DNA from: Thiomicrospira sp. XS5
GTDB lineage: Bacteria; Pseudomonadota; Gammaproteobacteria; Thiomicrospirales; Thiomicrospiraceae
Reading direction: 5' to 3'
DNA length: 64,000 bases
NCBI RefSeq assembly: GCF_001507555.1
Contig: NZ_LQBO01000001.1
Span: 2,356,001 to 2,420,000 of the forward strand
Within the stretch, counting starts at the first letter, position 1. Every line of letters starts with the position of its first letter. Below the pieces are notes generated by a model. The model worked only from the letters and a program-made list of their open reading frames with translations, did no database searches and had not been told where the DNA came from. The position numbers and the translations under genes are program-made. Of the stretch, positions 7,489-63,307 are shown one piece after another.

Positions 7489-8092
7489 TGGCTTGCCCTC
7501 CGATTAAACCCAGTAAGGAAACGGTCAATTCGGTTGCGCCTTGGTCAGATAAGAAACCCGCCACCTTGTCCAGCGTGTCGAAACGCATCGGGCGGCCTTG
7601 GCTTTGAATGGTGGCCAATTGCTCTTTAGTGGTGGCTACGGAAACCGTCCAATAGTCGCCATGGCATGACGCCATAAACTCACGAATAAAGGCATTAGAT
7701 GGTAGAGAAATGGAAAATTGATAGTCGCCCACGGTGCGTAGGCCAAGTGAAATATCAGGCATAGGGTGCCCTCCTAGTGGTTTAGTTAATGTTTGACCAC
7801 CTGAATGAACAGGCAGCCAGGTTTCAACTGTCGCCACTAGACGACTGGACGTATTCCCCGGAACAGGTCTTTTATTCCGTCCTATCAACCCGGCCTCATT
7901 AGTTTTGAGACGTTCGATTGCGCCCGGCTTCCACCAGGCCTGGTGGATTTCGGGCACAAAAAAAGCGCTGTTTACGGCTGCGCATCCTGCCGCTAGTGGT
8001 TTAGTAGTGATTTCAATGGTAGCGGCACTGGGTGCCGATTGCAAGCCTAGATTATTGTAGCTAGTCACACTTACCCCCTTATGCCTTTTCAC
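7481..8092 (-). CDS. Unknown protein: possible Ash-like N-terminus fused to duplicated small domain
   Basis: The open frame is 203 aa. Residues 1-110 (VPEIHQAWWKPGAIERL ... PVPGNTSSRLVATVE ... LTKPLGGHP) remind me of the Ash-type proteins encoded beside alpA in P4-like islands, with low certainty. Residues 111-203 are a paralogue of the following gene. An internal ATG at 7762 has a strong ribosome site (GGAGG, about 9 bp upstream) and would give a free-standing 93-aa protein, so two products may be made. The frame overlaps alpA by 14 bp. A CCAGGCCTGG palindrome lies inside (7934-7943). Confidence 0.55.
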   Translation of the reverse strand: MKRHKGVSVTSYNNLGLQSAPSAATIEITTKPLAAGCAAVNSAFFVPEIHQAWWKPGAIERLKTNEAGLIGRNKRPVPGNTSSRLVATVETWLPVHSGGQTLTKPLGGHPMPDISLGLRTVGDYQFSISLPSNAFIREFMASCHGDYWTVSVATTKEQLATIQSQGRPMRFDTLDKVAGFLSDQGATELTVSLLGLIGGQANA

Positions 8093-15137: not shown

Positions 15138-15147
15138 CCAGGCCTGG
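15138..15147. repeat. CCAGGCCTGG palindrome (alaS-lysC intergenic)
   Basis: This is an exact copy of the 10-bp palindrome that recurs across the window. Here it has no T tract of its own, and the alaS terminator lies about 90 bp further on. Confidence 0.9.
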
Positions 15148-17990: not shown

Positions 17991-18476
17991 TTAAGCGTGG
18001 CGAAAGGCTTTCCAAATCTGGGACTGGGAAAAACCGCGCGATTGCAGAAAACGCATCCGCCGCGCCTGTTCTTTCGCCTGCGATGGTTTGGCGGTGTCGC
18101 CGTATTTTCGTTCCAATGCCAAGGTCGCGATATCGGCCCAATCGGAATCGTCCATCGCCAGATAGGCTTCCACCAAATCCTGGCGATCGGTGCGCATCTG
18201 CAAGGCCTGCTTGATCTTATAGGGCCCCTGCTGCTTTTCCATCGCTTGCCGGACATAGGCTTCGACATACCGCTCATCCGATAACCAACGGTGCTCTTCG
18301 CACTTATCTAATACGATATCCACCAGGCCTGGGTAATCTTCGGATAGCGGGAATTTCTGCGATAACTTATACCCTAATTCCTTACGGCCATGCTCTCGCA
18401 GTGACAATAAATACACCGCGCGCGCTTCCATTTCCTGTGCCAGCGTTTGGGCCTCTTCCGAGTCCAAAGAATCCAT
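17991..18476 (-). CDS. recX: RecA regulator RecX
   Basis: The 161-aa protein has the three-helix RecX repeats: ARAVYLLSLREHGRKELGYKL, VDIVLDKCEEHRWLSDERYVEAYVRQ, and a C-terminal RRMRFLQSRGFSQSQIWKAFRH. It sits directly behind recA (26 bp), as is usual, and should limit RecA filament extension. A CCAGGCCTGG palindrome lies in the coding sequence (18323-18332). Confidence 0.93.
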   Translation of the reverse strand: MDSLDSEEAQTLAQEMEARAVYLLSLREHGRKELGYKLSQKFPLSEDYPGLVDIVLDKCEEHRWLSDERYVEAYVRQAMEKQQGPYKIKQALQMRTDRQDLVEAYLAMDDSDWADIATLALERKYGDTAKPSQAKEQARRMRFLQSRGFSQSQIWKAFRHA

Positions 18477-18502
18477 ACGTCGTTGGGCTCCCTGTTACAA
18501 GA

Positions 18503-19540
18503 TCAGGCTTCGGCTTCATCCCCTTCCGGAGCGTCCTTCGATGACGCCGGTTTGGGCATCAAACGTTCTTTCAATTCTTTTTGAAGGGTTTCGGAAATCT
18601 CCGGATTATCTTTCAAGAACTGGCGGACATTGTCTTTGCCTTGACCGATTTTTTGCCCTTCATAGCTGTACCAGGCCCCGGCCTTATCAATCAATTTTTC
18701 CTTCACGCCCAAATCAATGATTTCACCTTCACGGGAAATCCCTTGGCCGTACAGAATATCGAATTCCACTTGTTTAAACGGCGGAGACACCTTGTTTTTC
18801 ACCACTTTCACGCGGGTTTCGTTCCCCAAGATTTCTTCGCCTTTCTTAATCGCACCGATACGGCGGATGTCCAAACGCACCGATGAATAGAATTTCAAGG
18901 CATTACCACCGGTGGTGGTTTCCGGGTTACCGAACATAACGCCGATTTTCATACGAATCTGGTTGATGAAGATGACCAACGTATTGGTGCGTTTGATATT
19001 CGCAGTCAGCTTACGCAACGCCTGCGACATCAAACGGGCTTGCAAGCCCATGTGGGAATCGCCCATGTCACCTTCAATTTCCGCTTTCGGCGTCAAGGCG
19101 GCCACCGAGTCGACAATCACAATATCCACGGCACCGGAACGCACCAACGAATCGGTAATTTCCAACGCCTGCTCGCCTGTATCCGGCTGGGACACCAACA
19201 GGTTATCCACGTCCACGCCCAGCTTCTGAGCGTAAATCGGATCCAAAGCGTGCTCGGCATCGACAAAGGCTGCGGTGCCGCCCGCTTTCTGCATTTCGGC
19301 AATCGCATGCAACGTCAACGTGGTTTTACCGGAGGATTCCGGGCCGTAAATCTCAACAACACGACCGCGCGGCAAACCACCGATGCCCAAGGCAATATCC
19401 AGGCCCAAGGAACCGGTCGAAACGGCGTCAATGTCACGCGCGACACCTTGGTCGCCCATGCGCATGATGGAACCTTTACCAAATTGTTTTTCAATTTGTC
19501 CTAACGCCGCTTCGAGCGCTTTACGCTTATTCTCATCCAT
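18503..19540 (-). CDS. recA: Recombinase RecA
   Basis: The start at 19540 ([29 protein letters not shown]) is the family start, giving 345 aa; the open frame extends upstream but not convincingly. Walker A is GPESSGKTT, loop L1 is [25 protein letters not shown], and loop L2 lies around [19 protein letters not shown]. It promotes strand exchange and SOS induction. No clear CTGT-N8-ACAG LexA box is visible upstream, so SOS control here is uncertain. A possible -10 (GATAAT) is present near 19694. Confidence 0.98.
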
Positions 19541-19786
19541 TAACATCACCGTCTTTTCGTTACATCCGATACCGAAGGCCGCCGGAGCCGACTTCAGAAC
19601 CATTCAAATTACATTAAAAAACCCTTGCTTTCCTTTTCCCGCAAACGCAATTTGCGAAAAAAACAAAGGCAAAGGTTGAAATTTTATTGGGGCATGATTA
19701 TCCCATAATTCCGTCGATTTAACACTTTTTTTATCGGCTGTCATCACCAATGGAGTTTCCGAAAAAAATCCACAAAAACCGAACGT

Positions 19787-20287
19787 TCAGCCTTCTTTGA
19801 GCAAACGCAGTACACCTTGCAAAGCTTCAACGGTGCAAGCCAGCCGAACCGCATTGCGATCCCCGTCAAAATGATAGAGTTTGGAGACGATTTCGTTATG
19901 CCCTTGCATCGCCCAGGAGATCCAGACCGTGCCCACCGGCTTATCCGGCGTACCGCCACCCGGCCCGGCAATACCGCTGCAGGCGATACTGATGGCGGCG
20001 TGCGATTCCTGCAGAGCCCCAACCACCATTTCCTCAACACATTCCTGACTGACCGCCCCCTTGTGCTGCAAAGTCACTTCCTTGACCCCCAGCATTTCAT
20101 GTTTCGACTCATAACTGTAGGTCACAAACGCCCGATCAAACCAGGCCGTGCTGCCGGCGACACTGGTCAAGGCCTCGGCAATCAAACCACCGGTACAGGA
20201 TTCCGCCGTCACGATCAACTTATCGCGCTGTTTCAGGGCGTCACCCACCTCGGCCACCAAGGATTCAAGGCTCGAACGGCTCATCAT
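19787..20287 (-). CDS. pncC: Nicotinamide-nucleotide amidase (CinA C-terminal family)
   Basis: The 166-aa protein has the PncC/CinA-C motifs [32 protein letters not shown] and [26 protein letters not shown]. It deamidates NMN to NaMN in NAD recycling. It lies upstream of recA, as in many gammaproteobacteria, and is divergent from mutS. Confidence 0.94.
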
Positions 20288-20472
20288 TAAAGGGCTCCTT
20301 ATTGATAGAAAGTGTTTTATCGATTAGCATACCTTTTTTTACACATTTTTTACAGTGGCGACGCTGGCGAAATCTCACTTTCTGCCATTCACACATGGCA
20401 TTTCCGCTAAAATATTCGCCCAACGAACCCCCGACAGAAACTTCAACCAACCGGAACCGACCGCAAACAATT

Positions 20473-23094
20473 ATGGCCGAAAAAACCACCCACACTCCCA
20501 TGATGCAACAATACCTGGCGGTTAAAGACGAGCATCCAGGTCATTTGCTGTTCTATCGCATGGGCGATTTTTACGAACTCTTCTACGACGACGCCGTCAA
20601 AGCGGCCGAACTGCTGGAAATCACCCTCACCGCACGCGGTAAATCCGGCGGCCAACCGATTCCGATGGCGGGGATTCCGCACCATTCTGCGGACGGCTAT
20701 CTCGCCAAGCTGGTCAAACTCGGCGAGTCCGTCGCCATTTGCGAACAAATTGGCGACCCGGCGACGTCCAAAGGCCCTGTGGAACGCAAGGTGGTGCGCA
20801 TCATCACGCCAGGCACCTTGGTGGAAGACGCTCTATTGGAAGACAAGTCGGAAAACCTGCTGGCGGCCATCACCGAAATCGACGGTGCCTATGGCTTGGC
20901 CTATCTGGATGTGGCCAGCGGCCGTTTCGAAGCCACCCAGCTTGACGATGGCGTACAACTGGCCGCCGAAGTCGAGCGCCTGAAACCGGCGGAAATCATT
21001 TTGCCCGACGACCCGTTGCTGGAACAGAACCTGCCGGAAGCGGTTCAAAAACGCCCAGGCCTGGTGCGTTATCCGGCGTGGCACTTTGACGTCGACGCCT
21101 GCCGCAAACGCCTGACCGACCATTTCGGCACCCAGGACTTGGTGGCGTTCGGTTGTGAACAGCTGCCGACCATTATCGCTGCCACCGGCACCATTCTGCA
21201 TTACGCTCGCGCCATGCTGCAAAGCGACTTAGAGCATGTGTTCAGCCTGCAAACCTACCGCACCGACGATGCCTTGGTGCTGGATGCCATGAGCCGTCGC
21301 AACCTTGAACTGGACACCAACCTCAACGGCGGCAAACACCATACACTGTTTTCGATTCTCGATAACGCCACCACCGCCATGGGCAGCCGCTTGATGAACC
21401 GCTGGCTGAATCAGCCGTTGCGCAATCGCGACATCCTCAACGCCCGTCTGGACGCCATCGACGATTTGATTGCGCAACACAGCACCGACGATTTCCACCA
21501 GATTTTGAAGCCTATCGGGGATTTGGAACGTATTCTGAGCCGGGTCTCGCTTTATTCCGCCCGCCCCCGCGACCTGTTGCACCTTGGCCGTTCCCTCAAC
21601 CAGTTGCCGGAACTGCAAGCCTTACTGGCGAATCAAGCCGCCGAAAAATGGCAACACATCGCCCAGCGCCTTGGCGAATACCCGGAACTGGCCGCACAAC
21701 TGGATAAAGCGCTGGTGGAAAACCCACCCATGGTCATGCGTGATGGCGGCGTTTTCGACGAAGGTTACGACGCCGAACTCGATGAACTCCGCAACTTGAA
21801 AAACGAGGCCGGAGATTATCTGCTGGCACTGGAAGAACGTGAAAAAGAGCGCACCGGCATTCAAACCCTGAAAGTCGGTTACAACCGCGTGCACGGTTAT
21901 TACATCGAAGTCAGCAAACAACAGTCCGACAAAGTGCCGGCCGATTACGTCCGCCGCCAAACCTTGAAAGCCCAGGAACGTTACATCACACCCGAACTGA
22001 AAGGCTTTGAAGACAAGGTCCTCAGTGCTAACGAAAAAGCCCTGGCACGCGAAAAATGGTTGTACCAGCAATTATTAGAGCGCCTCAACGAGGACTTGAA
22101 AACCTTACAACAAACCGCCGCCGCATTGGCGGAAACCGATGTGCTCAATGCGCTGGCCCGTCAGGCCATTGCCCTGAATTTAACCCGCCCGGTTCTGACC
22201 GACGAACCCGGATTGGATATTCAACAAGGCCGCCATTTGACGGTCGAAGCCTTGTCCGACCAACCGTTTATCCCCAACGACGCCTGTTTCGACGACGCCC
22301 GTCGCCTGCAGATCATCACCGGGCCGAACATGGGCGGTAAATCCACCTTCATGCGCCAGACCGCGTTGATTGCCATCATGGCCTACATGGGCAGTTTCGT
22401 CCCGGCGGAGTCGGCGACCTTAGGGCCCATCGACCGCATTTTCACCCGCATCGGGGCGTCGGATGACCTGACGTCCGGGCGTTCGACCTTTATGGTGGAA
22501 ATGACTGAAACCGCCAATATCCTGCACCACGCTACGCCGGAATCCTTGATTCTAATGGACGAAGTCGGCCGGGGAACCTCCACTTTCGACGGCTTGGCAC
22601 TGGCTTGGGCCATTGCCGAACAGATGGCGCAAAGCATTCAGGGTTACTGCTTGTTCGCGACCCATTATTTCGAGTTGACCACCTTGGCGGAACAGTTCAA
22701 CAACACCGTCAACATTCACCTGAATGCCATCGAACATCAGGACAAAATCGTCTTTATGCACCAAGTGCAGGAAGGTCCGGCATCGCAAAGTTACGGTTTG
22801 CAAGTCGCTGCTTTGGCCGGGGTGCCGAATGAGGTGATTCGAAAAGCGAAAACTCACCTGCATCGTCTGGAAAATCAAACCGCGGCGCAAAGCGGACACT
22901 CGGTCACCGCCTCCGGTGCAGATGAAACGCCCGTGCAACAGTTCGACCTGTTTGCGGCCGGACCGGCCAACCCGAAAGAAATCGAAGACTTGCTGGACGA
23001 GCTGGGAGACTTGAAAGTCGACGACCTCACCCCCAGAAAAGCGCTGGATAAATTATATGAATTGACCGATATCGTAAAAGAGTTTCGAGGATAA
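20473..23094 (+). CDS. mutS: DNA mismatch repair ATPase MutS
   Basis: The start at 20473 ([37 protein letters not shown]) gives 873 aa, with the Phe-x-Glu mismatch-reading motif in domain I ([19 protein letters not shown]). The ATPase has [17 protein letters not shown] and [17 protein letters not shown]. The C-terminal tail ([33 protein letters not shown]) matches the tetramerisation helix. The open frame reaches back to 20302 but lacks similarity there. It contains CCAGGCCTGG at 21055-21064. Confidence 0.98.
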
Positions 23095-24853: not shown

Positions 24854-24877
24854 AAAACGCCCAGGCCTGGGCGTTTT
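24854..24877. terminator. Perfect 24-bp palindrome terminator centred on CCAGGCCTGG
   Basis: AAAACGC and GCGTTTT flank CCAGGCCTGG (24861-24870), giving an unbroken dyad followed by T. It ends the mutS-cnoX-DUF5718 transcript. Confidence 0.85.
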
Positions 24878-26132: not shown

Positions 26133-26160
26133 GTACTTTGACCAGGCCTGGTCAAAGTAC
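26133..26160. terminator. Perfect 28-bp palindrome between convergent genes
   Basis: GTACTTTGA and its complement TCAAAGTAC flank CCAGGCCTGG (26142-26151) without mismatch. Outer arms TTAACGGTT (around 26119) and AACCGTTAA (around 26164) can extend the stem. It sits between the gshB-like gene and dgkA, which converge. Confidence 0.75.
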
Positions 26161-29294: not shown

Positions 29295-29318
29295 AAATCC
29301 GCCAGGCCTGGTGAATTT
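29295..29318 (+). terminator. CCAGGCCTGG hairpin after the small membrane protein gene
   Basis: AAAT-C-CG and TGA-ATTT extend CCAGGCCTGG (29302-29311) into a nearly complete stem with a short T run. Confidence 0.6.
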
Positions 29319-31549: not shown

Positions 31550-31577
31550 GAAAAATCCCCAGGCCTGGCTGTTTTTC
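31550..31577 (+). terminator. Imperfect hairpin on CCAGGCCTGG after the transporter gene
   Basis: GAAAAAT and GTTTTTC bracket CCAGGCCTGG (31559-31568) with two mismatched positions, then more T and C. It acts as a probable rho-independent terminator. Confidence 0.6.
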
Positions 31578-32322: not shown

Positions 32323-33909
32323 TTATTCATTTTCGGCCAGGTACGACTCGTAATCACCGTGATAGACTTCAACGCCATCCGACGTCATCACCATCAAGCG
32401 CGTGGCCAAAGAGGAAACGAATTCGCGGTCATGGGAGACGAAAATGACCGTGCCTTCGAAGTCTTCCAACGCCTGGTTCAAAGACTCAATGGATTCCATG
32501 TCCAAGTGGTTGGTCGGTTCGTCCATAATCAGAATATTCGGCTTCTGTAACATCAGCTTACCGAACAACATGCGCCCTTGCTCTCCACCGGACAACACCT
32601 TCACCGACTTATCGATTTCCTTCTGGGAAAACAGCATTTTGCCCAATACCGAACGCACGGCCTGCTCGTCGTCTTCCGGCTGCTTCCATTGCGACATCCA
32701 ATCCAACAGATTCAAATCTTCTTCAAATTCGTGTGCATGGTCCTGCGCATAGTAGCCGATCTGATTGTTTTCCGACCACTTAATCGTCCCGGCATCGATA
32801 TCGGTGTCGCCGACCAGCGTTTTCAGGAAAGTGGTTTTCCCGATGCCGTTCGGCCCGATGACCGCCATCTTTTCGCCAGCTTCCAACATCAAGTTCAAGT
32901 CCTTGAAAATCGTCAAGTCATCGTAAGATTTGGTCAAATGCTCGATTTCCAATGCCAGGCGGAACAGCTTCTTGTCCTGTTCGAAACGAATGAACGGATT
33001 CACCCGGCTGGACGGCTTCACTTCTTCCAACTCGATTTTATCAATCTGTTTCAAGCGTGATGTGGCCTGCTTGGCTTTGGACGCGTTGGCCGAGAAGCGG
33101 CTGACAAAGGATTTCAGTTCATTGATTTGCGCTTTTTTCTTGGCGTTATCGGCCAACAAACGTTCACGCGCCTGAGTGGACGCAAACATGTATTGGTCGT
33201 AATTGCCCGGATAGACACGCAGCTCGCCGTAGTCCAAATCCGCCATATGGGTACAGACCGAGTTCAAGAAGTGACGGTCATGCGAGATGATGATCATGGT
33301 GCTTTTACGTTCGTTCAACACGCCTTCCAACCAGCGGATGGTGTTGATGTCGAGGTTGTTGGTCGGTTCGTCCAGCAACAGGATGTCCGGATCCGCGAAC
33401 AGCGCTTGTGCCAACAATACCCGCAGCTTCCAGCCCGGCGCGATTTCCGACATGGGCCCGAAATGTTGTTCCACCGGAATCTCCAAGCCCAATAGCAATT
33501 CGCCGGCGCGGGATTCGGCGGTGTAACCGTCCATTTCACCAAACGCCACTTCCAGGTCGGCGACTTTGATGCCGTCTTCTTCGGACATTTCCGGCAAGCT
33601 GTAAATGCGATCGCGCTCTTGCTTGACCTCCCACAGCGCGGCATCCCCCATAATCACGGTATCGATTACGCTGAACTCTTCATACGCGAACTGATCCTGA
33701 CGCAGTTTCCCCAATACATCATCCGGGTCGAGGCTGACATTCCCGCTGGTCGGTTCCAAATCGCCGCCCAGGATTTTCATAAAGGTGGATTTCCCGCAAC
33801 CGTTGGCGCCGATCAAGCCGTAACGATTTCCGTCGCCGAATTTGACGCTGATGTTTTCGAAAAGCGGCTTTTCGCCGAATTGCATGGTGATGTTCGCGGT
33901 TGAAATCAA
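32323..33909 (-). CDS. ybiT: ABC-F ATPase, YbiT-like
   Basis: The 528-aa protein has two ABC domains without membrane segments: [10 protein letters not shown] (Walker A1), [11 protein letters not shown], then [26 protein letters not shown] and [11 protein letters not shown]. The charged P-site linker lies between (about residues 240-310). Length and order match YbiT among the ABC-F translation factors that act at the ribosomal E site. The first domain's signature is replaced by [15 protein letters not shown]. Confidence 0.92.
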
Positions 33910-34000: not shown

Positions 34001-34024
34001 AAAACGACCAGGCCTGGCGGTTTT
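34001..34024. repeat. CCAGGCCTGG hairpin in divergent promoter region
   Basis: AAAAC and GGTTTT extend the palindrome at 34008-34017 with two mismatches. It lies between the divergent ybiT and ldhA-like genes, where a terminator would not be expected for either. This suggests a role other than termination. Confidence 0.75.
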
Positions 34025-34117: not shown

Positions 34118-35119
34118 ATGAACGTCGCCTTTTTCAGCACCACCAAAACCGACAAAGCCCTCTTTGAAAGACTGTCTCCGGATTATCCGGTCGATCTCGA
34201 TTATTTCGACGTCCACCTCAACGAAAAGACCGTGCCTTTGGCGAAAGGTTATCGCGCGGTGTGTGTGTTCGTCAACGACACCCTTTCACGTCCGGTCATC
34301 GAACAATTGGCAGCCGGCGGCACCGAACTGATCGCACTGCGTTGCGCCGGTTTCAATAACGTCGACCGTGACGCGGCTCGCGAACACAAACTCACCGTCT
34401 TACGTGTGCCGGCTTATTCGCCGATGGCCGTCGCGGAGCACGCTTTGGCCTTGATGATGAGCTTGAACCGCAAAACCTATCGCTCTTACATCCGGGTGCG
34501 TGATGGCAACTTCACTCTGGAAGGCTTACTCGGTTTCGATATGTTCCGTAAAACCGCCGGTATCATCGGCACCGGTCGTATCGGTCTGGAAATGACCCGT
34601 ATCCTCACCGGCATAGGCTTAAACGTTCTGGCATACGACCCCTACCCGAATCAACAGGCCGAAGAGTATGGCGCCGAATACGTTGAACTGGATGAGCTTT
34701 ACCGGCAAAGCGACATCATCACCTTGCACGTGCCGTTGGTGCCGGAAACCCATCACATGATCGACGCAACCGCCTTGAGTAAAATGAAAGACGGTGTCAT
34801 GCTGATCAACACCAGTCGCGGTGCTTTGACCGATGCCGATGCGCTGGTACAAGGCGTGAAAGACCGCAAGATCGGTTATCTGGGCATTGATGTCTATGAA
34901 CAGGAAGAAAACCTGTTTTTCGAAGACCACTCCGAAGAAATCATTGATGACGATACCTTCGAACGCCTGGTGACCTTGCCGAATGTATTGATTACCGCGC
35001 ACCAAGCTTATTTCACCGCCGAAGCGTTGGATAACATCGGTCAGACCACACTCGAAAACATTCAGGATTTCGAACGCAATGACATCGATAAAAGTCGCTG
35101 CGTATTATGTGAACCCTAA
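34118..35119 (+). CDS. ldhA: D-2-hydroxyacid dehydrogenase, D-lactate dehydrogenase-like
   Basis: Start 34118 (MNVAFFSTTKTDKALFERL) gives 333 aa. The NAD-binding fold is TAGIIGTGRIGLEMTRILTGIGLNVLAYDPYP. The active site Arg lies in LINTSRGALTDADAL, Glu in DVYEQEENLFFEDHS, and His in VLITAHQAYFTAEAL, as in fermentative D-lactate dehydrogenases (LdhA). It would reduce pyruvate to D-lactate with NADH. The upstream open frame to 33842 overlaps ybiT and is not coding. Confidence 0.9.
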   Translation: MNVAFFSTTKTDKALFERLSPDYPVDLDYFDVHLNEKTVPLAKGYRAVCVFVNDTLSRPVIEQLAAGGTELIALRCAGFNNVDRDAAREHKLTVLRVPAYSPMAVAEHALALMMSLNRKTYRSYIRVRDGNFTLEGLLGFDMFRKTAGIIGTGRIGLEMTRILTGIGLNVLAYDPYPNQQAEEYGAEYVELDELYRQSDIITLHVPLVPETHHMIDATALSKMKDGVMLINTSRGALTDADALVQGVKDRKIGYLGIDVYEQEENLFFEDHSEEIIDDDTFERLVTLPNVLITAHQAYFTAEALDNIGQTTLENIQDFERNDIDKSRCVLCEP

Positions 35120-35222: not shown

Positions 35223-37115
35223 TCAGATCACTTCACTTAGCAAGGCATTCATGCGTTTGATGAAATCCGCCGGATTTTCCAAATGATCCCCTTCCGCCAA
35301 TTGCGCTTGCTCCAGCAGGAACAAGGACCATTCTTTGATTTTGGCCTCATCGTCCAAAGCATCCAGTTGTTTCACCAAGGCATGTTCCGGGTTCAACTTC
35401 AATACCGGGTTTTGTTTCGGCATGGCCTGCCCCATTTGCTCCAGCATACGCGCCATATGCGCGGAAACATCACCGTCCGCGGGCACCACACAAGCAGGTG
35501 AATCCGTCAAACGATGGGTGATTTTAACGTCGGAGACGGCGTCTTCAATCGCTTTTTTCACTTTTTCGGTCAAGGCTTCACGCGCTTGTTTATCTTCTTC
35601 CGACAAATCCTTCTCGGCTTCGTCTTCGAATTCTTTCAAATCTGCCGCCGTGACGGATTTGAGCTGTTTGCCTTCGAATTCGGTCAAGTGCGACACCAAC
35701 CACTCGTCAATACGGTCGGTCATCAACAAGACTTCAATGCCTTTCTTACGGAACATTTCCAAATGTGGGCTGCCGGAAGCCGCCGCATAAGTTTCCGCGG
35801 TGATGAAATAAATGGCTTCCTGGTCGTCCGCCATGCGATCGACGTAATCCTGCAACGACACACGCTGCGTCGGACCGGAGGATTCATGCGTGGACGAGAA
35901 GCGCAACAGCTTGGCGATTTTTTCGCGGTTGGCGAAATCTTCGATAATCCCTTCTTTCATGACATTACCGAACTGATCCCAGAAGATGTCGTAATCGGTT
36001 TTGTCATCGGCCTTAGCCATTTTGTCCAACTGGTCTAGCACACGCTTCACCGAAGCGGAACGGATTTTATCGACCACTCGGTTACTTTGCAGAATTTCAC
36101 GCGACACATTCAACGGTAAATCGTTGGAATCAATAACGCCGCGGACGAAACGCAGATAGCTCGGCATCAAGTGTTCAGCGTCGTCCATAATGAAGACACG
36201 CTTCACATACAGCTTCAAGCCATAACGGCGATCACGGTCGTACAAGTCGAACGGTGCACGTTTCGGAATGTACAGCAAAGAAGTGTATTCCAAAGTCCCT
36301 TCCACTTTATTGTGCAGGTGAGCCAACGGGCTTTCATAATCGTGTGACACCGTCTGATAGAAGTTATTGTAATCTTCATCGGACAATTCGGATTTAGGCT
36401 GCGTCCAAATGGCGGTGGCTTTGTTGACCTGCTCCAGCGTTTTCTCACCGGTTTCCTTACCTTCGTCATCGGTTTCCGCCTGCCACATCTTAATCGGGAA
36501 ATTGATGTGGTCGGAATAAGTCGTAATAATGTGTTTCAAACGGAAGTCGTCCAGAAACTCGTCCATGTCTTCTTTCAGGTGCAGGACGATTTCGGTGCCT
36601 TTGACGTCTTTTTCGACGGTTTCCAAAGTGTATTCACCTTCACCGGCCGATTCCCAACGGGTGCCTTCCGCTTTATCGTCACCCGCCTTACGGGTCGTCA
36701 GCGTGACTTTGTCGGCGACAATGAATGAAGAGTAAAAGCCGACCCCAAATTGACCGATCAAATGACTGTCTTTGGCTTGGTCACCGGTCAGGCTTTCCAG
36801 GAATTTTTTGGTGCCGGAATTGGCGATGGTCCCGATATTGGCGATGACTTCGTCGCGGGTCATGCCGATACCGTTATCAATAATGGATACGGTACGGGCG
36901 TCTTTATCAAAACCGACTTGAATCGCTAACTCGGATTCACCTTCAGACAAGGCATCGTTGGAGACCGACTCGAAACGCAGTTTATCCAAGGCATCGGACG
37001 CATTGGACACCAGCTCTCTCAAGAAAATTTCTTTATTACTGTAAAGGGCATGAATCATCAGTTTCAGCAACTGATTCACTTCGGTTTGGAACGCATGAGT
37101 TTCCGTATGGCTCAT
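35223..37115 (-). CDS. htpG: Hsp90-family chaperone HtpG
   Basis: The 630-aa protein has the GHKL ATPase motifs [24 protein letters not shown] and [11 protein letters not shown]. The middle-domain catalytic Arg region is [16 protein letters not shown], followed by the C-terminal dimerisation domain. It remodels client proteins with DnaK in the cytosol. A sigma-32-type promoter lies about 75 bp upstream (37191-37219), supporting heat induction. Confidence 0.97.
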
Positions 37116-37190
37116 TTAAAGCTTCTCCTTCATTGAGGTTAGTCTTTTGTTTTTTTGTGGCGGGTTGATTCAACCCAAAAGTTAGGGATT

Positions 37191-37219
37191 AAATAGGGCC
37201 AGGCCTGGTATATTTCAAG
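37191..37219 (-). promoter_or_regulatory. Putative sigma-32 promoter of htpG with CCAGGCCTGG spacer
   Basis: On the minus strand CTTGAAA (37219-37213) is followed by 14 bp and then CCCTATTT (37198-37191), close to the heat-shock consensus CTTGAAA-N14-CCCCATNT. Ten of the 14 spacer bases are the palindrome CCAGGCCTGG (37199-37208). Confidence 0.7.
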
Positions 37220-37264
37220 GGCTGAATGCATGTTTTTTTCATGACCGGGTACTGAAACCAAAAA

Positions 37265-37288
37265 AAGCGCTCAAAGAGCGCTTTTTTA
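37265..37288. terminator. Terminator of secreted unknown gene
   Basis: AAGCGCTC-AAA-GAGCGCTT with flanking A and T runs lies about 25 bp after the stop of the gene at 37312. Confidence 0.9.
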
Positions 37289-37311
37289 ACGTATCGAAAG
37301 GGATTGGAAAA

Positions 37312-38205
37312 TTATTCGTTTCCAGCCACAATCTCCAAAGATTCCTTGATTTCATCCGGTGCATTGGCAATAGACATAAAGCTACCGGACCCCATCATGG
37401 ACAGGCTTGGCCAGTTAATAGCGATACGGAACTTGCCGTTCAACGCCAAGGCTTCGTCTCCATTAACCAACAATTCATATGGCAAATGCGCCGCATGAGA
37501 ATGCCCTTCCCCATCGATTTGCGTCAGAATATTTTTATCCGCGCCTTCGGTTTTGGAGAAGGCCACACCGAATACGGTCATGTCTTTGCCCGGGATATCG
37601 ATGCGATACACTTGCGTCACCCCGCCACGTCCAGCTTTCAAACCGGCTTCAATGGTGTTCACCCCTTCCTGATAAGAATCGAACGCCTGAATCTCATCCA
37701 CATCGTCAAAGTACGGCATCATGAACTTGTAGTGGTATTCGCGCAACTCGTCCGCCGTGAGGGGTTTTTCCGCACCGAAGCCTTTTTGGTTGCCCAGGGC
37801 TTTTTCCATCGCAGCTTGTACCGGCTGGATATCGCCTTTCATACGATACACATTCCACATATAGGTCGGATTGGTGTAAGACACCTCGGTCTGGCTACCA
37901 CGTTTGACCACGGAAACACGTTCCATGGCACCAAAGCCGCCGTTTTTAGACAAGCCGGCCAGGTTTTTCAACGCATCGTTGGTCACCACAATGACTTCAC
38001 TGTCGGCATTCGGTTTATAACTACCAACCACTTCAAAACCATTTTCGGTTAGGGCTTGCTTGGTTTTATCCACCGTCGCGGAAACACTGTCTCCAGACGA
38101 GGAACCCAAAATAAACGGCATATAGCCGGCGGCCATGGCCGATGTCGCCGAAGCCAATAACGACACCGCCAGAGAAGCGGTCAAAAAGAGGGATTTAAAT
38201 TTCAT
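37312..38205 (-). CDS. Exported protein of unknown function, DUF302-like
   Basis: The 297-aa protein has a Sec signal (MKFKSLFLTASLAVSLLASATSAMA, cleavage after AMA). The region about 40-120 (VDKTKQALTENGFEVVGSYKPNADSEVIVVTNDALKNLA) recalls the DUF302 fold without full confidence. The C-terminal half ends in a helix-rich segment with no metal motif. It is monocistronic, flanked by terminators on its 3' side. It is probably periplasmic. Confidence 0.65.
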   Translation of the reverse strand: MKFKSLFLTASLAVSLLASATSAMAAGYMPFILGSSSGDSVSATVDKTKQALTENGFEVVGSYKPNADSEVIVVTNDALKNLAGLSKNGGFGAMERVSVVKRGSQTEVSYTNPTYMWNVYRMKGDIQPVQAAMEKALGNQKGFGAEKPLTADELREYHYKFMMPYFDDVDEIQAFDSYQEGVNTIEAGLKAGRGGVTQVYRIDIPGKDMTVFGVAFSKTEGADKNILTQIDGEGHSHAAHLPYELLVNGDEALALNGKFRIAINWPSLSMMGSGSFMSIANAPDEIKESLEIVAGNE

Positions 38206-41823: not shown

Positions 41824-42330
41824 TTACCGGGCTTGCCGGGCTTGTTTTTGCGCTTGGCGCCGTTTTTTGAAAAAACGACTCAGCATTTCGCCGGTTTCGT
41901 TCGCCAAGACCCCGCTTGTCACCGTCATCTGATGATTTAAGTGCTCATGTTGCACCAAATTCATTAAGGAACCGGCCGAACCGGTGCGAGGATCGCTTGC
42001 ACCAAACACCAATCGCTTGATACGGGCATGCACCAGCGCACTGGCACACATCGGGCAAGGTTCCAAAGTAACGTAAAGAGTTGAATCAACCAGTCGGTAA
42101 TTCTGCCAGGCCTGGCCAGCCGCGCGCAACGCGACGACTTCGGCATGGGCGGTGGGATCATGAGATTGAATGGTTTGGTTCCAGCCTTCGGCCACCAGTT
42201 GGTGTTGATACACTAACACAGCGCCGACGGGCACTTCGCCCTGGCTTTCCGCTTTTTCGGCCAAGGTGATGGCATGTTGCATCCAAAACCGATCCTGCTC
42301 GGCTTGGGATAAAGAATCAGGACACAACAT
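41824..42330 (-). CDS. tadA: tRNA adenosine(34) deaminase
   Basis: The 168-aa enzyme has the zinc and proton-shuttle motif HAEVVALRAAGQ and the PCPMCASALVHARI motif, then LVFGASDPRTGSAGSLMNL. It converts A34 to inosine in tRNA-Arg(ACG). It lies just after guaA (18 bp). CCAGGCCTGG occurs at 42106-42115 inside the coding region. Confidence 0.95.
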   Translation of the reverse strand: MLCPDSLSQAEQDRFWMQHAITLAEKAESQGEVPVGAVLVYQHQLVAEGWNQTIQSHDPTAHAEVVALRAAGQAWQNYRLVDSTLYVTLEPCPMCASALVHARIKRLVFGASDPRTGSAGSLMNLVQHEHLNHQMTVTSGVLANETGEMLSRFFKKRRQAQKQARQAR

Positions 42331-46171: not shown

Positions 46172-46201
46172 AAAAAAACCGCCAGGCCTGGCGGTTTTTT
46201 T
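46172..46201. terminator. Perfect 30-bp palindromic terminator centred on CCAGGCCTGG
   Basis: Seven A, CCG, CCAGGCCTGG (46182-46191), CGG and seven T form a flawless dyad. It serves the lipoprotein gene and the convergent CbiM-like gene. Confidence 0.92.
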
Positions 46202-51770: not shown

Positions 51771-51780
51771 CCAGGCCTGG
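51771..51780. repeat. CCAGGCCTGG palindrome after sufE
   Basis: Exact copy, 20 bp after the sufE stop. The arms outside the 10-mer barely pair, and a separate terminator follows 30 bp later, so here the motif is not needed for termination. Confidence 0.9.
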
Positions 51781-51881: not shown

Positions 51882-54800
51882 TCAGTCATTGATGTTTTCG
51901 TTATAATTATCGATAAAGTCCGATTTCGACATATCGTTAACAATAACCTCAAGTTGCTGATCGTTTTTGGTGTTGGATGAATCATCGATGACTTGCTGGT
52001 CATCTTCATCGCCTTCATCATTAGCGAAGTTCAAATAGGTTTCTAGATTGGCAGCTTCCAAATCAATGGGATCTTTTAAAACTTCTGATAAATCAATCGT
52101 ATCCACACCTTCTTCGTCCTGATTGGATCCAGTCGCTCCAAATGTATCAAAACTATCGGTCTGCTCATCAGAGCCAATGTCTTCGGCCAACACATCATCA
52201 CCTTCACCAGCGAGCAAGAAGCCTGCCCCATCTTGGGATTCGGCAAATTCATCAATTTCCGATTCATTCACTACAGGCTCGACCGCATCAGAAATCGCTT
52301 CATCTGCAATCTGCTCCTCATCAAGCTCCAGACCGTTTTCACCAATCATGGCTAGTGCTTCGTCCACGGAATCAGCGGCGGCCACGTTATCAAGCAGCTC
52401 GAAATCGCCCGCTTCCAAATCGGAATGGGTAATGAGCATTTCTTGCACGTGGCTCATGGCATCTTCCAAACTCACCGGTGCGACACCCGCAGCCGCCAAG
52501 GCGGTGGTGACATCGTCCATGCTTGCAGAAGACAAGTTCAGCGTGGTATTAGCCAAAACGTTGCGCGCCTGTTCGGAAATCTGTAAACCGTCCGCCGTGT
52601 TGCCTTCACTGTCCAGCGACTGTAGGAAGACCGCCATTTTCTGAACATATTCATCAGATAGATTGGTCAATTCCACATCCGCCAAATCTTGCAGGAAGAG
52701 AATCCCGACGTCCAGATCACTGGCCGTGGCCGTACCCAGCACCACACCGCCAATGCTGAAGGTCACGCTGTCGCCTTCGCGGTATTCAAACGCGCCTTCG
52801 GCATCGGTCAAGCCCGACAAACCGGAGGTGGTTTGATAGCCCATGCCTTCAATAATACCGTCGATAATCACGGCACTCATCACGGCTGGGTCACCCAAAC
52901 CACCATTCGATTGATCAATATTGTCGTATATCTCTTCAACCGTGTCGGTGCCATCGTTAAAGGTCAGACTTTTCACTCCACTTGGCAAGACATATTGAAC
53001 ACCGCCTTTTTCGATGGTAATGGAACCATTGTAAACGCCATTATTAAAGGAACCGCCATTACTGAACTGGATAGCATAATCCCCCGAATTACCCGGAAGA
53101 GTCATCGTGGTGTTGGAACCTGTCGTTTTAAAATCAAACGTTGCCCAATCTGTCCAGGAAGACTCACTGTCAGTCGGGTTGGCCGGATCCACCGTTTTGG
53201 CTCGCACATCCAAGCCATCGTCATAACCAGAATACAGCATTTCAACATTATTGATCTGGTCGTAAGCCACGCCTTCCAGGGTATAAACCCCGCCACTGAA
53301 AGACGCGTCCAGCCAAGGGCCATCGCTCAGTCGGAACAGCATACCTTCTTCTAACGCAGGGCTGCCGGAAGCGGCTTTGACTTCAACGGTCATGGTTTCG
53401 GAGCCATCCACATCAACCATATTGGCATTGAGTTTCAAGTCCATCCAATCGAAGGCATCGCCAAACGTCAGGGTTGGGTCAATGGTCAGACCATCCGCCA
53501 TTGGGTTAAAGGTGACATCAAAATCGTAATCTTCATTGGTGGTTTGATTACCGTCTGAAAGACCGAACAGGTTCAACAACACTTCGTCCAGATTACCACT
53601 CCAGTTTTGAGGTGCTTGAATCCATATTTCCTGCGGAATTTGACCATTATCCAACGGAACCAGCCACTGGTTGAAGTTCACCAGTTCACTGTCGCCGTTC
53701 GGGTTCAACTCGAAGGTACCTGCATAGGTTTCACTTTGCCCGATATTGGTAGCCATCGTGAGATTGTTTGGATCGGCACCGTAGAAGATCAGGAGGCCAT
53801 TCGGGATTTTATCCAGTGTCATACTGCCAATGGATTCGGATGGGTCGGTTAGATTTCCACCAAAGTCCATTTTAATACGGTTAAGATCCGTTCCCGTGGA
53901 TTCGTCACCAGAAACATCATTGGCTTGGCCGTTCTCCAAACCGTCAATCACCGGGATGACCTGGATGGTAGCGGACTCCGTTGAATCTTGCACAGCTGTA
54001 TCATGCACACCAGTGTCCCAACCATGCCCTTCTTTGTTTTGAACCAACACATCAAAGCTCACATCACCATGACGGTTCTCACCCGGTTTAAAGGTAAAGT
54101 CAATGGCATCGCCCATCGAATAACCGGATACATCCACCACAAAATAATCACTGCCGTTGATGTTTTCAATCGCGGCCAGTTTTGCGCCGTTATACCAAAG
54201 CTCACCTTCTGCCGTTTCACCCGCTTCATAATTTTCTGAGAACTTGATATAAAGCTTGTCATTAATAATATCCGTTACCTGATCTGCGGTATTGGATAAC
54301 GTTACCGTGAAATCGGTATCGGTATCTTCCTGGGTATCACTGGCGTTAATCGCGATGGTCATATCATCCGTAACCGGCAAAATATGTTCGGCATAATTCA
54401 CCGTATTACCTTGATGGAAAGTACCATTATGATTTGTCGCAATGGTGGCGGTAAATGTCATGGACTGCGAAAAATTATCGCTATCATTGACATTTTCCGG
54501 TGGTGTAATAGTGACACCGGACAACGCCGTTTCCGCATCGGCCGCATTACCATTACCGGTAATGACATAACGCACCACCCCACCTTCTTCATAGGAATAG
54601 TCATAACCTGCAATAGAAGCACCGGACGGTAAATCGGTGATGGTAATCGCATAGCTACCGCTATCATTACCACCATTATTCTCAACATTTAGGGCACTGC
54701 CCAAGTTAAAGTCCGTATCCTCCAGAATCTCCAGCGGTTGTGTGCTCAGCTCAAATTGCGGCGGTGTCCCTGTTCCTGTGCCTGGGTTATAGCTATTATC

Positions 54801-57800
54801 GGCTTCTAGAGTAAAGGTCACCGTATCGCTTTCTAAACTGGCACCTGTATCTTGGTTAAAGGCTTCAATGGAAATGTTACGTGTTTCAAAATCCGCGCCG
54901 TCATTGACTTTAAATTCGATGTTCTGAGTGTGACCATTCGCATCGTTAAGGGCTTGATCGGCAATATCCAATACCCAAATGCCGTTATGCGGACTGCCAG
55001 CATAACCATAATAGGTTCCGCCAACCACTTCAACACCCATGGGTACACCGGTAATGACATACTGCACCGCGCTTTCCGAGCCGTCTTGGTCGGGCGTGGT
55101 TAAAGTCACCGGAACGCTAAAGATGGTATTGGATTGCTCAACCGTGACGGTATTGCCGGAAACACTGTAACCCATGCCGTCTGCAATAGTGTCTTCACTC
55201 GCCGTTGGGGTATCCGTGACGGCATTAATGGTTAAGTTGTAATTGAAAGTACCATCCTTAGTATCAAAAGTATTTTGAGAGGTTTCTGTGTCTTTCACCG
55301 TATAACCGACTTCAAAGGTAAAGTCACCAGCACCAATATCATGCTCAGTGGTATTTTTGGCGTAGATGCTATCGGCCTGAGCGGCCGTTAGAACATAGTA
55401 ATCCGTACCACTAATATTAGTTTTCGCCAGGCCTGATAATGGATTTGAGCCATTACTGTCCATATAAAGCATAAAATCTTTTCCATCGACATCCGATGCT
55501 TTAATCCGAACCTGTTCAAGCGTTTCATTCGTATCACCGTTTTGATGATTAATGCCTAAATCCACTTTAAACAAGACATCTTCCTTACCAGAACTGCTGT
55601 CGTTTACAGTAGCTTCCGCCGTTGGGCTAACAAAGATTTTCACTGTATCGATAAAGTGGGTTTTGCTGTCGCCTTCACGCTCGGTGGTGACATACTTTAA
55701 GTCGAATGTCGCTTCACCACTGAAGTTGGCTGGGGTGGTGATTTTGACATTTGCCAAATCATCGGCTAAGAAAGTCCATTTCCCAGCACCAATCATCGAA
55801 GCGCCTTCCACACCAAACCCGCTGGGCAGATTACTGATGACCACCGATAGCGTTTCGGAATCGCTGTCATAGGAATCTAAACTGTTCGGCGTTTGATAGA
55901 CATCTTTTAAATCGAATTTATTGCCTTGGCCATCTAAGTCTGTATTTTCATTCAGAACTAAATTGTAATCACTTCCAGCATTCCCGTTAATATCAAACCC
56001 TTTCAGCTCAGTACCGACCGGCACATCCGCCACGCCTTTGACAATGACATCAATGTCTTTATCCGTGCCTAACCAAGCGGATGTATTTGTGACAGGACTG
56101 CCATTAATTGTGACGGTATCCACGGTTTGGGAGTTGACTTTCAGTGTATATTCCAAGTCACTATTGTGAGGCGGAATAAAATAAAGCGGTGCATTATTAT
56201 CAAAGTCATTAATAATAATTTCGCCCGCATTGATACTTTGTGCAACACCGGCATAATAAATCGCCGCACCAACCGGAATATCCGCAATTCGCACATTAAA
56301 GGCTTCCGAACCATCGGTATCGCTGGTGCTGACGTTAATATCCAATGGGATGCCGTTTTCAGGAGCATCAATAGCATCACTTTTAGCATCCATGTTGCCG
56401 CCCGAACGACCGGCATCTTCTAAACCAATTGACTGTTTAACTTGGATAGTGGCCAAATCAGCTTCAGGGTTAACATCCACATTAAAATACACCACTTGAG
56501 TTTGCACATCCGTTGTATGAGAACTGTCACTGTCCGTATCTTGCACACGCAACGTTACTGTCGCTTCCACTTCACCAGCGAAGTGTTCCGGCAGCTTCAT
56601 GCTGAAATCCGGATCTAGAATGTAATCTGCATCCCAGAACCAGATGGTCGCTTCACCGGAAGCATCGGCTGTCGCCGAATGGCTACCTAGTGTAATGACG
56701 GTTCCTTCCGGAACATTTTCGAATGTGTAGGACATGTTTTCAGAACCGTCCAAATCCACAATACCGCCCGCCGTGGCCGTTAAGATTCCTTTTAAGTCAA
56801 TGGCACCATCACCTTCCGTTAAGCTATTATGGGTAAAGGTATCGTTTATTCTATGCGTTTGTGAAATGGAACCATTTGTAGCAGTATCAAATTCTAGCGC
56901 AATATCGTCCGTCACCGCTTTGACTTCCACATGGAAGGTTTTATTGGTGGTGGAACCATTAATGCCGACCGTTTGCGAATCCGGCTGTTTATTGCCACTA
57001 GCATCCACTTCATAAGAGGTCACAGACATTTTGATGTCAATATCATTATGAGCCTGAGCTACAGGATTAACCTTTAAGGCTTCAAATTCCAACTTTGTCA
57101 TCTGAATATGGCTGGCATCAGCAGTGAAGTTATCAATCGTATCTTGAGTATGATCACCATCACTTAATAGAATATAAAGCTTATTGCCGGTGCCACCACT
57201 GGTCCAAAGCGGGTTGTCACTAGCGTCTAAAATTTGAACGCCATCAGCCATATTACTTAATGAAATCAAGCCCAGTTTTTCAGGGTAGTCCCAATCGGTT
57301 GCACCGTTCGCATTATTTTTATCGATATCATCTGTTACGACTGGCGCTTTCAGGTTAATGGTAACCGCTGTATCTTCCCAGGTTTCGGCACCGCCATCCG
57401 AAATAGTCGGCGCATCGGATTTTGGCGTAACGCTGATGGAGACACTAGCCGAAGCGGTATCACCATCGGTATCACTGGCACCGGCATAAGAGAACCCAGC
57501 CGTATCACCGCTATAATTTCCAATCGGGGTAAAGGTCAGCGTTCCGTTACCGTTATTGGTTAAGGTACCGACAATATCGTCGCCATCAGCATCATAGATA
57601 TCAATAGTAGTGTTATCAGTTGTATTCAGCGTAGTAGTTGTACCGGCATTATTATTAATTTCAATCTCACCATTTAAGAAGGATTCATCACTGATCACAA
57701 TTAATTTAGAACCGTCTTCATCTACGGCGATGGTTTGATTCGTGCCAACTGGCAGAGAGTCATTCACTGTGACCGTAAAATTTTGCACCTGACTCGTTTG

Positions 57801-60800
57801 ACCCTGATCTTGAATTTTATAACCGAAGGTTAAAACAACATCGTCATCGGAATTCACGTCTGGGTGGTCGATATTTTCAAACTGGGTATAAGTGTAGTTG
57901 TCGTCCCCACCGCCAGCATTGTTTTTGTTTAGGGTGATTTCAAATACCTTACGATTATCCGCACTGGTCGCTATGATTTTGCCTTCAGTATCGTAATTAA
58001 ACGAAATCGCTTGACCATTCGAGGTTAGTGTTACAGGGGAATCATCATCAAAATCTTTCACTGTCACATTGGTATCAAATAGCAATTTATAAGCGTTATC
58101 GCCTGTTGGCGCATAAACATTCAAAGATTCAGAATCCGTAATGATATTGGGTGAAGCGGTTACATCAAAATCATCTTCATCGACATAGACATTATCGGGC
58201 ACACCCAAAGTCACGCCATCTTGAATGGTGCCGGTCACACTGGTGAAGTTACCGTCTTTATCGCCAATCGCGATGTTTTCAAAGCTATCCTGAGCTTGCA
58301 CCACATCGGTTATCGTTAACTGATAAACCTCATCTGGATTTTCACGTGTAAAGTCGTCTATTGTTTTATTGATAATCGACAGTTTATAGATACCATCCTC
58401 TTTAGGGGTGTTTTTATCCAGTGTCACGGTAATCGAATTATTTTCATTGTACTGGTTTGAGCCATTAACAAAATCAGCACTCCCGACTGTTCCAAATTGC
58501 GTGGCATACGTCAGAGTAATGGTTAAAGCTTCACCATCTGGAATGATTACGGCTTGACCATCTTTATCCACCAACTGTACATAATGATTAAGATCATTCC
58601 CCTCAATTGCGGTGTCATTGTTGATGATTTTGACATAGACGGTATCATCTTTATCATAAGAACCATTGGTCGGATCATCATTACCCGTTGAATCGTCATC
58701 CTGTTTTTCTTTTGCTGGGTTGTCGGTAATCGTTGAGACCACTTCATCATGAATAATATCAATGTTCGGTAATTCATAGGGCGTATTTTGTGGATTGGAA
58801 ATCGTAACCGTGAAGCTTTCATTACCTTCAGCGAAATAGTCGTCTTTAGCATCGACTTCGAATTTTTGGCCGATGGTGACGGTTGCACTGTTCGCCGTGT
58901 AATCATCCGTAGTACCGTTATCGGGTGTGGCGCCATAGACCACATCCACTGTGCCGCCTTGTGTGGCCAGCGGTTTACCATCTTCATCTACGGCCACCGC
59001 TACGTAATACAGCTTGTCGCCTTCGGGAGTGATATTGGTGTTTTGGTTAACATCAACCTTGCCATTACCATCTAAAGGAATATCTCCTGCTGAATTGGTT
59101 ACAACCAATACAATCCTGGTATAGTCTGGATCGGTTTCGATTTGGTTACCCGGGCTATCATCGTGAATCGTGGTGTTCACGTCTTTACGATTACCGTCCT
59201 TGTCGCCAATGACCGTATTTTCAAACTCGTTGGTATCGACTTGAGTAATGGCCAGTTTGTAGTCTTCATCGCCCTCGGCGTAATAGTCGTCGTTGGTCGC
59301 CACGGTGAAGGTGTTGCTGGAACCATCGGCTGGAATCATTACGGTGATGGTGTCGCCATTGCTGTGTTCTGTGTCAGTATTATCCGTGTCAACATTACTA
59401 TAAGTCACAGTAACATTCGTGGCTTGCGTGACTTTGACCTCATTACCGTCTTTATCAATTAATTTAACGGTGTATTCTGTAGTAGTGTCGCCTTCCTTAA
59501 CACTGTCAGGCCCGGTAATAATCGCATAAACCGTATCTTCTTCACCGTAACTTTCACCGTTACCTGGGTTATCTGGATCGGCTGGCTCGTTTGGCGTACC
59601 AGGCGATCCATTTTCAGGGTTATTAACCGGGTTATCTTGAATCGTACCATCTGCCGTGATTTCATCACTCGGAGCACCATTATCAACCGTGTGCGGAACA
59701 ATACTTTCAAAAGCACCTCCCGTATCCGTCACGTCAGAAATCGTAATTTGCAGTTGCTCGTTGCCTTCAGCATAGTAGTCGTCGATGGTCGACACGGTGA
59801 ACTCTTGTGAACTGTTGCCCTCCGTAATAGTAACAACATCATCAGGCGTGTAGTCGGTATCCTTGGTAGCAGGTGAATTGCCCAGGCCTGCATACATTAA
59901 CGAGACATCAATAGCCCCCCCCACCGGAACCGATACTTCAGCACCACTAGCATCTACAATGGTGAGTTTGTATTTTAAATCGCCACTTTCCGCCACCGTG
60001 TCTGTAACCGGTTCGATTTTGACAAACATTTTAGGTTCAGTATCTTTGATAGTCGTTGTCACAGGTACGGTGTCGATTTCAACCGTTTCATAACCACCTT
60101 GCGCCACTGGTGCATAAGAACTGGCATTCAAGATAACGGTATAGATTTCATTATCATCTGATTCCGTATCGGTAAAGGTCGCGGTATTAAAACTCTGCCC
60201 TAATGTAATAGTTTGACCATTATTGACAAAATCCTGAGAACCATCCACGGCCGTTTGCGTGCCAGCACCCTGGGCGCCATTCGCCCCATTTCCGTCATTA
60301 AAGGTGACTGTTACTTGACCTAACTGGTTAGCTAACCGAGTGCTGTCATTAAAGGTGGTGGTGTCTGCTTCAAATGCATAAGCAATATAGTTGGCATTTG
60401 AGCCTTCATCGACGGAATTGGCCTGCAGATAGTTGCCACTACCATCTTTCAACACATTACCATTGGCATCGGCTGCAAACAATTTAATCATGATCACTTC
60501 TTGATTCAGTTCAACCGAATCGCTTGGATCATTTGGTGTGCCTGGCTGCGAGTCGTCAATAATGGTTGTGACCACTGGGGTGGTGTCGTGGATGACGTTT
60601 TCGTATTTGGCCGCTTCGGTGTAGGTGTCATCGACAATGGCGACATTGAAGGTTTCGCCCGAGTCAGCTAAATAGTCGTCCAGTGCGTCGGCACTGAAAA
60701 CGGTGTTGAGTGTTACAGTCTGATCTTGTCCTTCAAAATCCAGCTCACCATCGGCCGCTGTGCCGGTTCTGACGGCGGTATCGTCTGTAAAGACGACATC

Positions 60801-63283: not shown

Positions 63284-63307
63284 AAAACCGCCAGGCCTGG
63301 CGGTTTT
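63284..63307. terminator. Perfect 24-bp palindromic terminator centred on CCAGGCCTGG
   Basis: AAAACCG and CGGTTTT flank the palindrome (63291-63300). It lies 7 bp after the gatB stop. Confidence 0.88.

Follow-up and report, generated by a model that had tools for sequence, protein, structure and literature searches.

Spacer palindrome of an htpG heat-shock promoter in Thiomicrospira sp. XS5 as one of 677 copies of a motif that may be a DNA-uptake-signal-like tag

The closest described counterparts of the motif reported here are the uptake sequences of Haemophilus and other Pasteurellaceae (USS), those of the Neisseriaceae (DUS) and the highly iterated palindrome HIP1 of cyanobacteria, for each of which we draw on extracts of the papers cited. 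USS occur in many near-exact copies, have a short GC core with A/T tracts and fall into species subtypes (PMC7811141, PMC12616744); the DUS dialects comprise altered versions in related species, with intragenic copies and inverted terminator pairs (PMC3630211); and HIP1 (GCGATCGC) is a GC-rich palindrome present in very many copies, for which relatives have alternative palindromes (PMC4390886). According to the extract of PMC7811141 (2020), a strong preference for uptake sequences is shown by species of two families. The motif built around CCAGGCCTGG in Thiomicrospira sp. XS5 shares these characteristics, but it differs from the USS, which are commoner (1,465 occurrences of the 9-bp core in H. 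influenzae, by the extract of PMC7811141), are non-palindromic and are unrelated in sequence. It differs from the DUS in its sequence and its bacterial hosts, and in being palindromic in most species. To our knowledge, the DUS receptor ComP has no known counterpart for this motif. From the analysis below, we put at roughly 55% the probability that it is a genome-wide recognition tag resembling DNA uptake signals, in a third family.

The window, by which we mean the whole stretch of 64,000 nucleotides that was analysed, contains htpG and its upstream region. An initial annotation had proposed that CTTGAAA, 14 bp and CCCTATTT form a heat-shock promoter of this gene, that CCAGGCCTGG fills 10 of the 14 spacer bases next to the -10 element, and that a protein bound to this palindrome would control heat-shock transcription. 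The features concerned are as follows.

35223-37115, minus strand: htpG (HSP90 chaperone; PRK05218, PF00183; NCBIfam), frame start at 37115
37213-37219, minus strand: -35 element CTTGAAA of the sigma-32-type htpG promoter, from sequence; kept upstream of htpG in relatives
37199-37212, minus strand: 14-bp spacer of the htpG promoter, from sequence
37191-37198, minus strand: -10 element CCCTATTT of the htpG promoter, from sequence; conserved
37199-37208, no strand assigned: CCAGGCCTGG, the spacer copy abutting the -10 element, one of 677 copies in the genome

Both the layout and the position of the palindrome, which is exact at 37199-37208, are present in the sequence as proposed, and the promoter is conserved in relatives. 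Thirty family loci, chosen as the best matches among 57 genomes that have htpG, were examined: 29 have CTTGAA no more than 170 bp upstream of the gene, and 22 match the full -35/-10 pattern used. The one locus without CTTGAA in this range is that of G002, in which the promoter, together with the palindrome, sits farther from the gene; about 150 bp of extra DNA separates the palindrome-bearing sigma-32 promoter from htpG in that genome, and its HtpG is 98% identical to that of the window. Because CTTGAA and the -10 element are conserved before htpG in relatives, the assignment of the promoter to the sigma-32 type, judged against the E. coli-type consensus, is well supported. It resembles such promoters in its CTTGAAA and CC-rich -10 elements, about 13-14 bp apart and conserved in the family, and differs in that its spacer is filled by an iterated motif in this genome (G000) and a few others. 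No Rfam family reached its gathering score in 36900-37500.

The palindrome occurs throughout the genome. There are 677 copies of CCAGGCCTGG in 2.63 Mb, with none of the reversed control pattern, and 15 exact copies in the window, where exact and one-mismatch matches together number 24 against a shuffle mean of 1.31. A sample of 464 kb, consisting of 20 stretches of 20 kb and the window, contains 112 copies, 63 of them entirely within open frames and 49 intergenic; as determined with a simple mask of ORFs, the intergenic share is 4.48 times the intergenic base fraction. This ratio is 4.36 in G005, 3.26 in G033, 4.69 in G013 and, for its own version of the motif, 3.83 in G031; against this trend, enrichment in G026 is just 1.33. 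Each of the 20 stretches holds 1 to 9 copies, and strong regional bias is absent; the spacing of sites seemed more regular than random, but it was gauged within 20-kb pieces and is not relied on. The second scaffold, C2, has 26 copies against 26.7 expected, and the depletion of the motif sought as a mark of foreign DNA was not seen there.

The motif is about 26 bp long, with CCAGGCCTGG as its core and an A/T tract on each side, approximately 4 to 8 bases out; the consensus half-site is about AAAAWYNR-CCAGG, and the motif is palindromic in this species. One-off variants are found mainly at the outer base pair (C to G, 48 against 1.2 expected; C to T, 11 against 1.4), and those within CAGGCCTG are mostly near expectation, the largest exception being CCAGACCTGG (8 against 1.0). 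In 21 of the 112 copies the palindrome is longer by at least 6 bp, giving terminator-like hairpins, most of them leading into tracts of A and T. The palindrome is extended by 1.88 on average, and by 0.60 if flanks are exchanged at random among sites.

In the htpG promoter, motif and promoter elements coincide: the AAA of the -35 element CTTGAAA doubles as one A/T tract of the motif, and the TATTT of the -10 element CCCTATTT as the other. A search of 58 family genomes found the palindrome core within a sigma-32-type promoter at five places in four genomes, namely in the htpG spacers of G000, G002, G021 and G025 and at a fifth place, also in G021. The metagenome-assembled genome L019 has the palindrome at htpG too, with a slightly different -10 element, and the register is identical in all of these core-bearing promoters. 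The second promoter of G021 (G021:C2:38057-38083) is sigma-32-like and stands upstream of a DnaJ/CbpA-like gene, its translation being judged by eye. The genus is probably Hydrogenovibrio in the wide sense, as the named htpG loci closest to that of the window belong to Hydrogenovibrio and Thiomicrospira. Within the genus the spacer copy is common only to G000 and G002, and sister genomes retain the htpG promoter without the palindrome; in G005 and G006 the motif sits upstream of the -35 element rather than in the spacer, and in G031 that genome's own version lies directly against the -35 element on its upstream side.

Flank scores built from other copies of the motif were obtained for palindrome-free htpG promoters. 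The four that were chosen for their 14-bp spacer (G009, G056, G070 and G077) all fall at the 99.1-99.3th percentile when compared with every position and at the 98.4-98.7th when compared with intergenic positions, and across the 26 palindrome-free promoters with CTTGAA the median percentile is 0.94 for all positions and 0.91 for intergenic ones, the fit being weaker outside the 14-bp spacing. At 14 bp, the AAA of the -35 element and the TAT(TT) of the -10 element are spaced as the A/T tracts are in the motif itself. The presence of flanking A/T tracts in sigma-32 elements 14 bp apart is the probable reason why the htpG spacer was colonised. With these tracts in place at the right spacing, a tag would form easily while both elements and their spacing were kept, and for a drive that spreads the motif such spacers would be easy targets, in which the -35, the -10 and the distance between them stay unaltered. 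Pre-adaptation of the flanks in this way can account for the recurrence of the register without a heat-shock regulator.

These data also bear on the regulatory proposal, in which a dedicated protein on the spacer palindrome would block or shape sigma-32 transcription of htpG. The palindrome does lie between the -35 and -10 elements, and its register recurs at htpG in five genomes and at the cbpA-like promoter of G021, as such an operator might have it; but the genome holds 677 copies, most sampled copies are inside open frames, nine of the 11 genus genomes lack the core in such a spacer by the promoter-pattern search, and the register has the explanation just given. Since the palindrome is genome-wide, its presence in one promoter does not in itself amount to a regulatory signal. 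Copy number across the genome and the mostly coding sampled copies rule out a dedicated heat-shock operator as the main reading, and we consider one very improbable. The protein-mediated control claimed by the initial annotation is accordingly the part of it that we do not uphold, in view of the copy number, the 63 of 112 sampled copies wholly within open frames, the occurrence of the core in such a spacer in just two of 11 genus genomes and the palindrome-free htpG promoter of the sister genomes. If the motif is an uptake tag, the htpG copy would be a passenger in a heat-shock promoter and not its operator, and any effect of the palindrome on htpG a by-product; a secondary effect on transcription is conceivable, given that other lineages show the palindrome in this register too.

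Relatives carry different versions of the motif. Over the order, 62 genomes (all of one family) contain between 0 and 856 copies of the palindrome. Seven of the 11 genomes in the genus have 367-677 copies of CCAGGCCTGG, and the remaining four, G001, G004, G008 and G010, are nearly without it (0, 0, 0 and 1). ACCGGCCGGT is present in 1025 copies in G031 and in at most 20 in each of the other 54 genomes; samples of G021 and G025 are rich in AACAGGCCTG and in ACAGGCCTGT, that is, in a ACAGGCCTGT-like version. The 15-mer ATCTRCCAGGYTGGG, which is asymmetric, occurs 339 times in G001, 289 times in G010 and 288 times in G004, and at most once in each of 52 others. In samples of G001 and G010 the abundant form is CCAGGTTGGG, and in those of G004 it is CCAGGCTGGG, mostly preceded by AAAATCT and an A or G. 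The left half of the asymmetric version, A tract included, equals the palindromic half-site at the same spacing, and in all three genomes the asymmetric versions form inverted pairs. A lone copy of the G004-type asymmetric version lies at G000:C2:1547-1561, on a scaffold whose palindrome density is otherwise usual. Neither the palindromic 10-mer nor the asymmetric 15-mer was found in G008 by count search. G018 has three copies of the palindrome, and a clear dispersed version was not found in the 100 kb sampled from it, so that some relatives may carry none; AGGTTTATAA occurs in G018 at 16 places, in three of the five stretches sampled.

Individual sites in the window were compared with those of relatives. 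They are listed here with two adjoining genes; the copies and the hairpin have no strand assigned.

5690-5699: exact copy within an open frame
7934-7943: exact copy within an open frame
15138-15147: exact intergenic copy
18323-18332: copy within recX, about codon 50; same-codon versions in G002, G009, G007, G001 and G004 (G010 could not be anchored)
21055-21064: copy within mutS, about codon 253; G010, G001 and G004 have asymmetric versions in this place
24861-24870: intergenic copy; inverted asymmetric pairs nearby in G010, G001 and G004, none in G009 and G007
26142-26151: exact intergenic copy
29302-29311: exact copy within an open frame
31559-31568: copy right after a gene end; asymmetric version nearby in G010, G001 and G004, none in G009 and G007
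32323-33909: ybiT (PRK15064 ABC-F), divergent from the ldhA-like gene
34008-34017: copy in the divergent gap between ybiT and the ldhA-like gene; motif copy there in six of six relatives compared
34118-35119: ldhA-like D-2-hydroxyacid dehydrogenase gene, divergent from ybiT
42106-42115: exact copy within an open frame
46172-46201: terminator-like hairpin AAAAAAACCG-CCAGGCCTGG-CGGTTTTTTT around the copy at 46182 (fold -20.1 kcal/mol, z -4.58)
51771-51780: exact intergenic copy
63291-63300: hairpin-forming copy shortly downstream of the gatB frame; G010, G001 and G004 have asymmetric versions there

The second copy that the initial annotation had placed in the divergent ybiT/ldhA region, at 34008, is real and lies between ybiT and the ldhA-like gene, where G002, G009 and G007 have the same motif and G010, G001 and G004 have asymmetric versions. 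By synteny with the window, palindrome sites are matched, at the same position or close to it, by asymmetric versions in recX (G001, G004) and mutS (G010, G001, G004); in these three genomes this also holds for the sites that follow genes w26 and w33, the one downstream of gatB and the one on the upstream side of the ldhA-like gene. The same three have no counterpart of the sites at w42, w45/w46, w53/w54 and htpG, among others, and at the place of the 46182 copy they have a terminator-like sequence without the motif. A consensus terminator scan did not list the hairpin around that copy. In mutS some of the motif bases are partly held in place by the protein sequence (R-P-x-L-V, as judged by eye), a constraint that intergenic sites do not have. 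The recX-recA-mutS region (17991-23094) has position-conserved copies in recX and mutS; uptake sequences favour genome-maintenance genes. Elsewhere in the window, at 51882-62042, an open frame of 3386 amino acids matches no Pfam family at E 1e-5, and its roughly 10 kb contain no exact copy of the palindrome.

A G000 site in an aligned stretch was counted as coinciding when a site of the other genome lay within 60 bp of it, and random placement was matched for coding or intergenic class. Coincidence was found for four of seven sites in G010, five of nine in G001 and five of nine in G004, all with asymmetric versions (random means 0.38, 0.43 and 0.43), and for 12 of 13 in G002, five of 12 in G009 and five of nine in G007, all palindromic (random means 1.28, 0.44 and 0.68). 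For each of the six genomes, no more than 0.03% of 3000 random draws attained the observed value. G005 was left out of this comparison, only htpG being mapped in its 60 kb.

The conservation of places is difficult to reconcile with a dispersed mobile repeat of the REP or MITE kind. Such an element would yield hundreds of copies, and inverted pairs like those of G001, G010 and G004 could be taken as its product, but copies lie at the same codon in conserved genes whose flanking sequence remains alignable, and the versions differ in place and not through insertion; we find this origin hardly credible. The observations are in better accord with a global DNA-binding or chromosome-organising protein of high abundance, a dimer of which would sit on the palindrome and bend the A/T tracts at selected, co-evolving sites: the core is symmetric and flanked by A/T tracts, each sampled 20-kb stretch contains 1 to 9 copies, and positions are conserved. 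However, three sister genomes use an asymmetric version, and the near-exactness of the copies, the small number of one-off variants in the core and the many copies in open frames suggest drive rather than tolerance. We therefore regard a protein of this kind as unlikely.

A further explanation is a HIP1-like palindrome linked to a methyltransferase and made by methylation-directed mismatch repair. The motif is indeed a GC-rich iterated palindrome that is replaced by another palindrome in a relative, and its one-off variants cluster at the outer base, as the extract of PMC4390886 describes for HIP1. The methylation-linked iteration model for cyanobacteria, as set out there (PMC4390886), would need a methyltransferase shared by the genomes here. 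None of PF00145, PF01555 and PF02086 is common to the carriers: among the seven palindrome-rich genomes of the genus, PF00145 was found in three (G002; G003, as two short fragments; and G009), PF01555 in three (G002, G003 and, as a partial match below the cut-off, G006) and PF02086 in two (G000 and G007), whereas G005, with 599 copies, has none of them. In addition, the length of the motif (18-26 bp), its A tracts and its asymmetric versions do not resemble those of a methylation site, and the alternatives found in relatives are not always palindromic as those of HIP1 are, being asymmetric in G001, G010 and G004, often at the same places. These differences make a methylation-driven origin decidedly improbable.

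The reading of the motif as an uptake-signal-like tag is the one that best accommodates these observations in our judgement. With DUS and USS it shares dispersed near-exact copies far beyond chance, in coding and intergenic DNA alike, species versions comparable to dialects, and inverted pairs or terminator-like hairpins as predicted from sequence; a conserved core with A/T tracts is a further likeness to the USS. Since versions are rewritten in place, a trans-acting reader of the motif is suggested. Such a reader, most likely the pilus/ComEC DNA-uptake machine, would prefer tagged DNA. As DNA imported with this preference recombined, the tag would be propagated and kept up, and if the specificity of the reader changed, old sites would be rewritten to the new version. 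ComEC (PF03772) is present in all 11 genus genomes and in 49 of the 55 searched, equally in genomes without a known version of the motif, and its presence therefore does not discriminate. The FimT/PpdA-type minor pilin family PF12019 was found in none of the 11 genus genomes, and simple prepilin-motif scans of the 464-kb sample of G000 found none. It counts against an uptake function that the DUS and USS cores quoted in the extracts of the papers cited above are non-palindromic, as do the undiminished density of the motif on C2 and the low intergenic enrichment in G026.

No earlier account of the motif appeared among the matches listed in the open PMC literature, and the matches listed for the string CCAGGCCTGG included no title on bacterial genome repeats. 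In the extract of PMC6501319, on Hydrogenovibrio, there is no uptake sequence, and the sole match to 'palindrom' belongs to the CRISPR abbreviation. That Hydrogenovibrio, Thiomicrorhabdus and their relatives possess a third, independent code for recognition of self-DNA, mostly palindromic and rewritten in place, in some cases into an asymmetric form, is a proposal to which we would give even odds.

For the interpretation of promoters, the htpG locus is a caution: a spacer may contain a perfect palindrome that is no more than a passenger. If the uptake-tag reading is true, a third family, that of the sulfur oxidisers Hydrogenovibrio and Thiomicrorhabdus, would be added to those with uptake sequences, and preference for self-DNA would have evolved again elsewhere. 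The switch of versions at conserved positions would then be a natural experiment in the joint change of receptor and tag, and the sites of close relatives would record the history of a change in receptor specificity.
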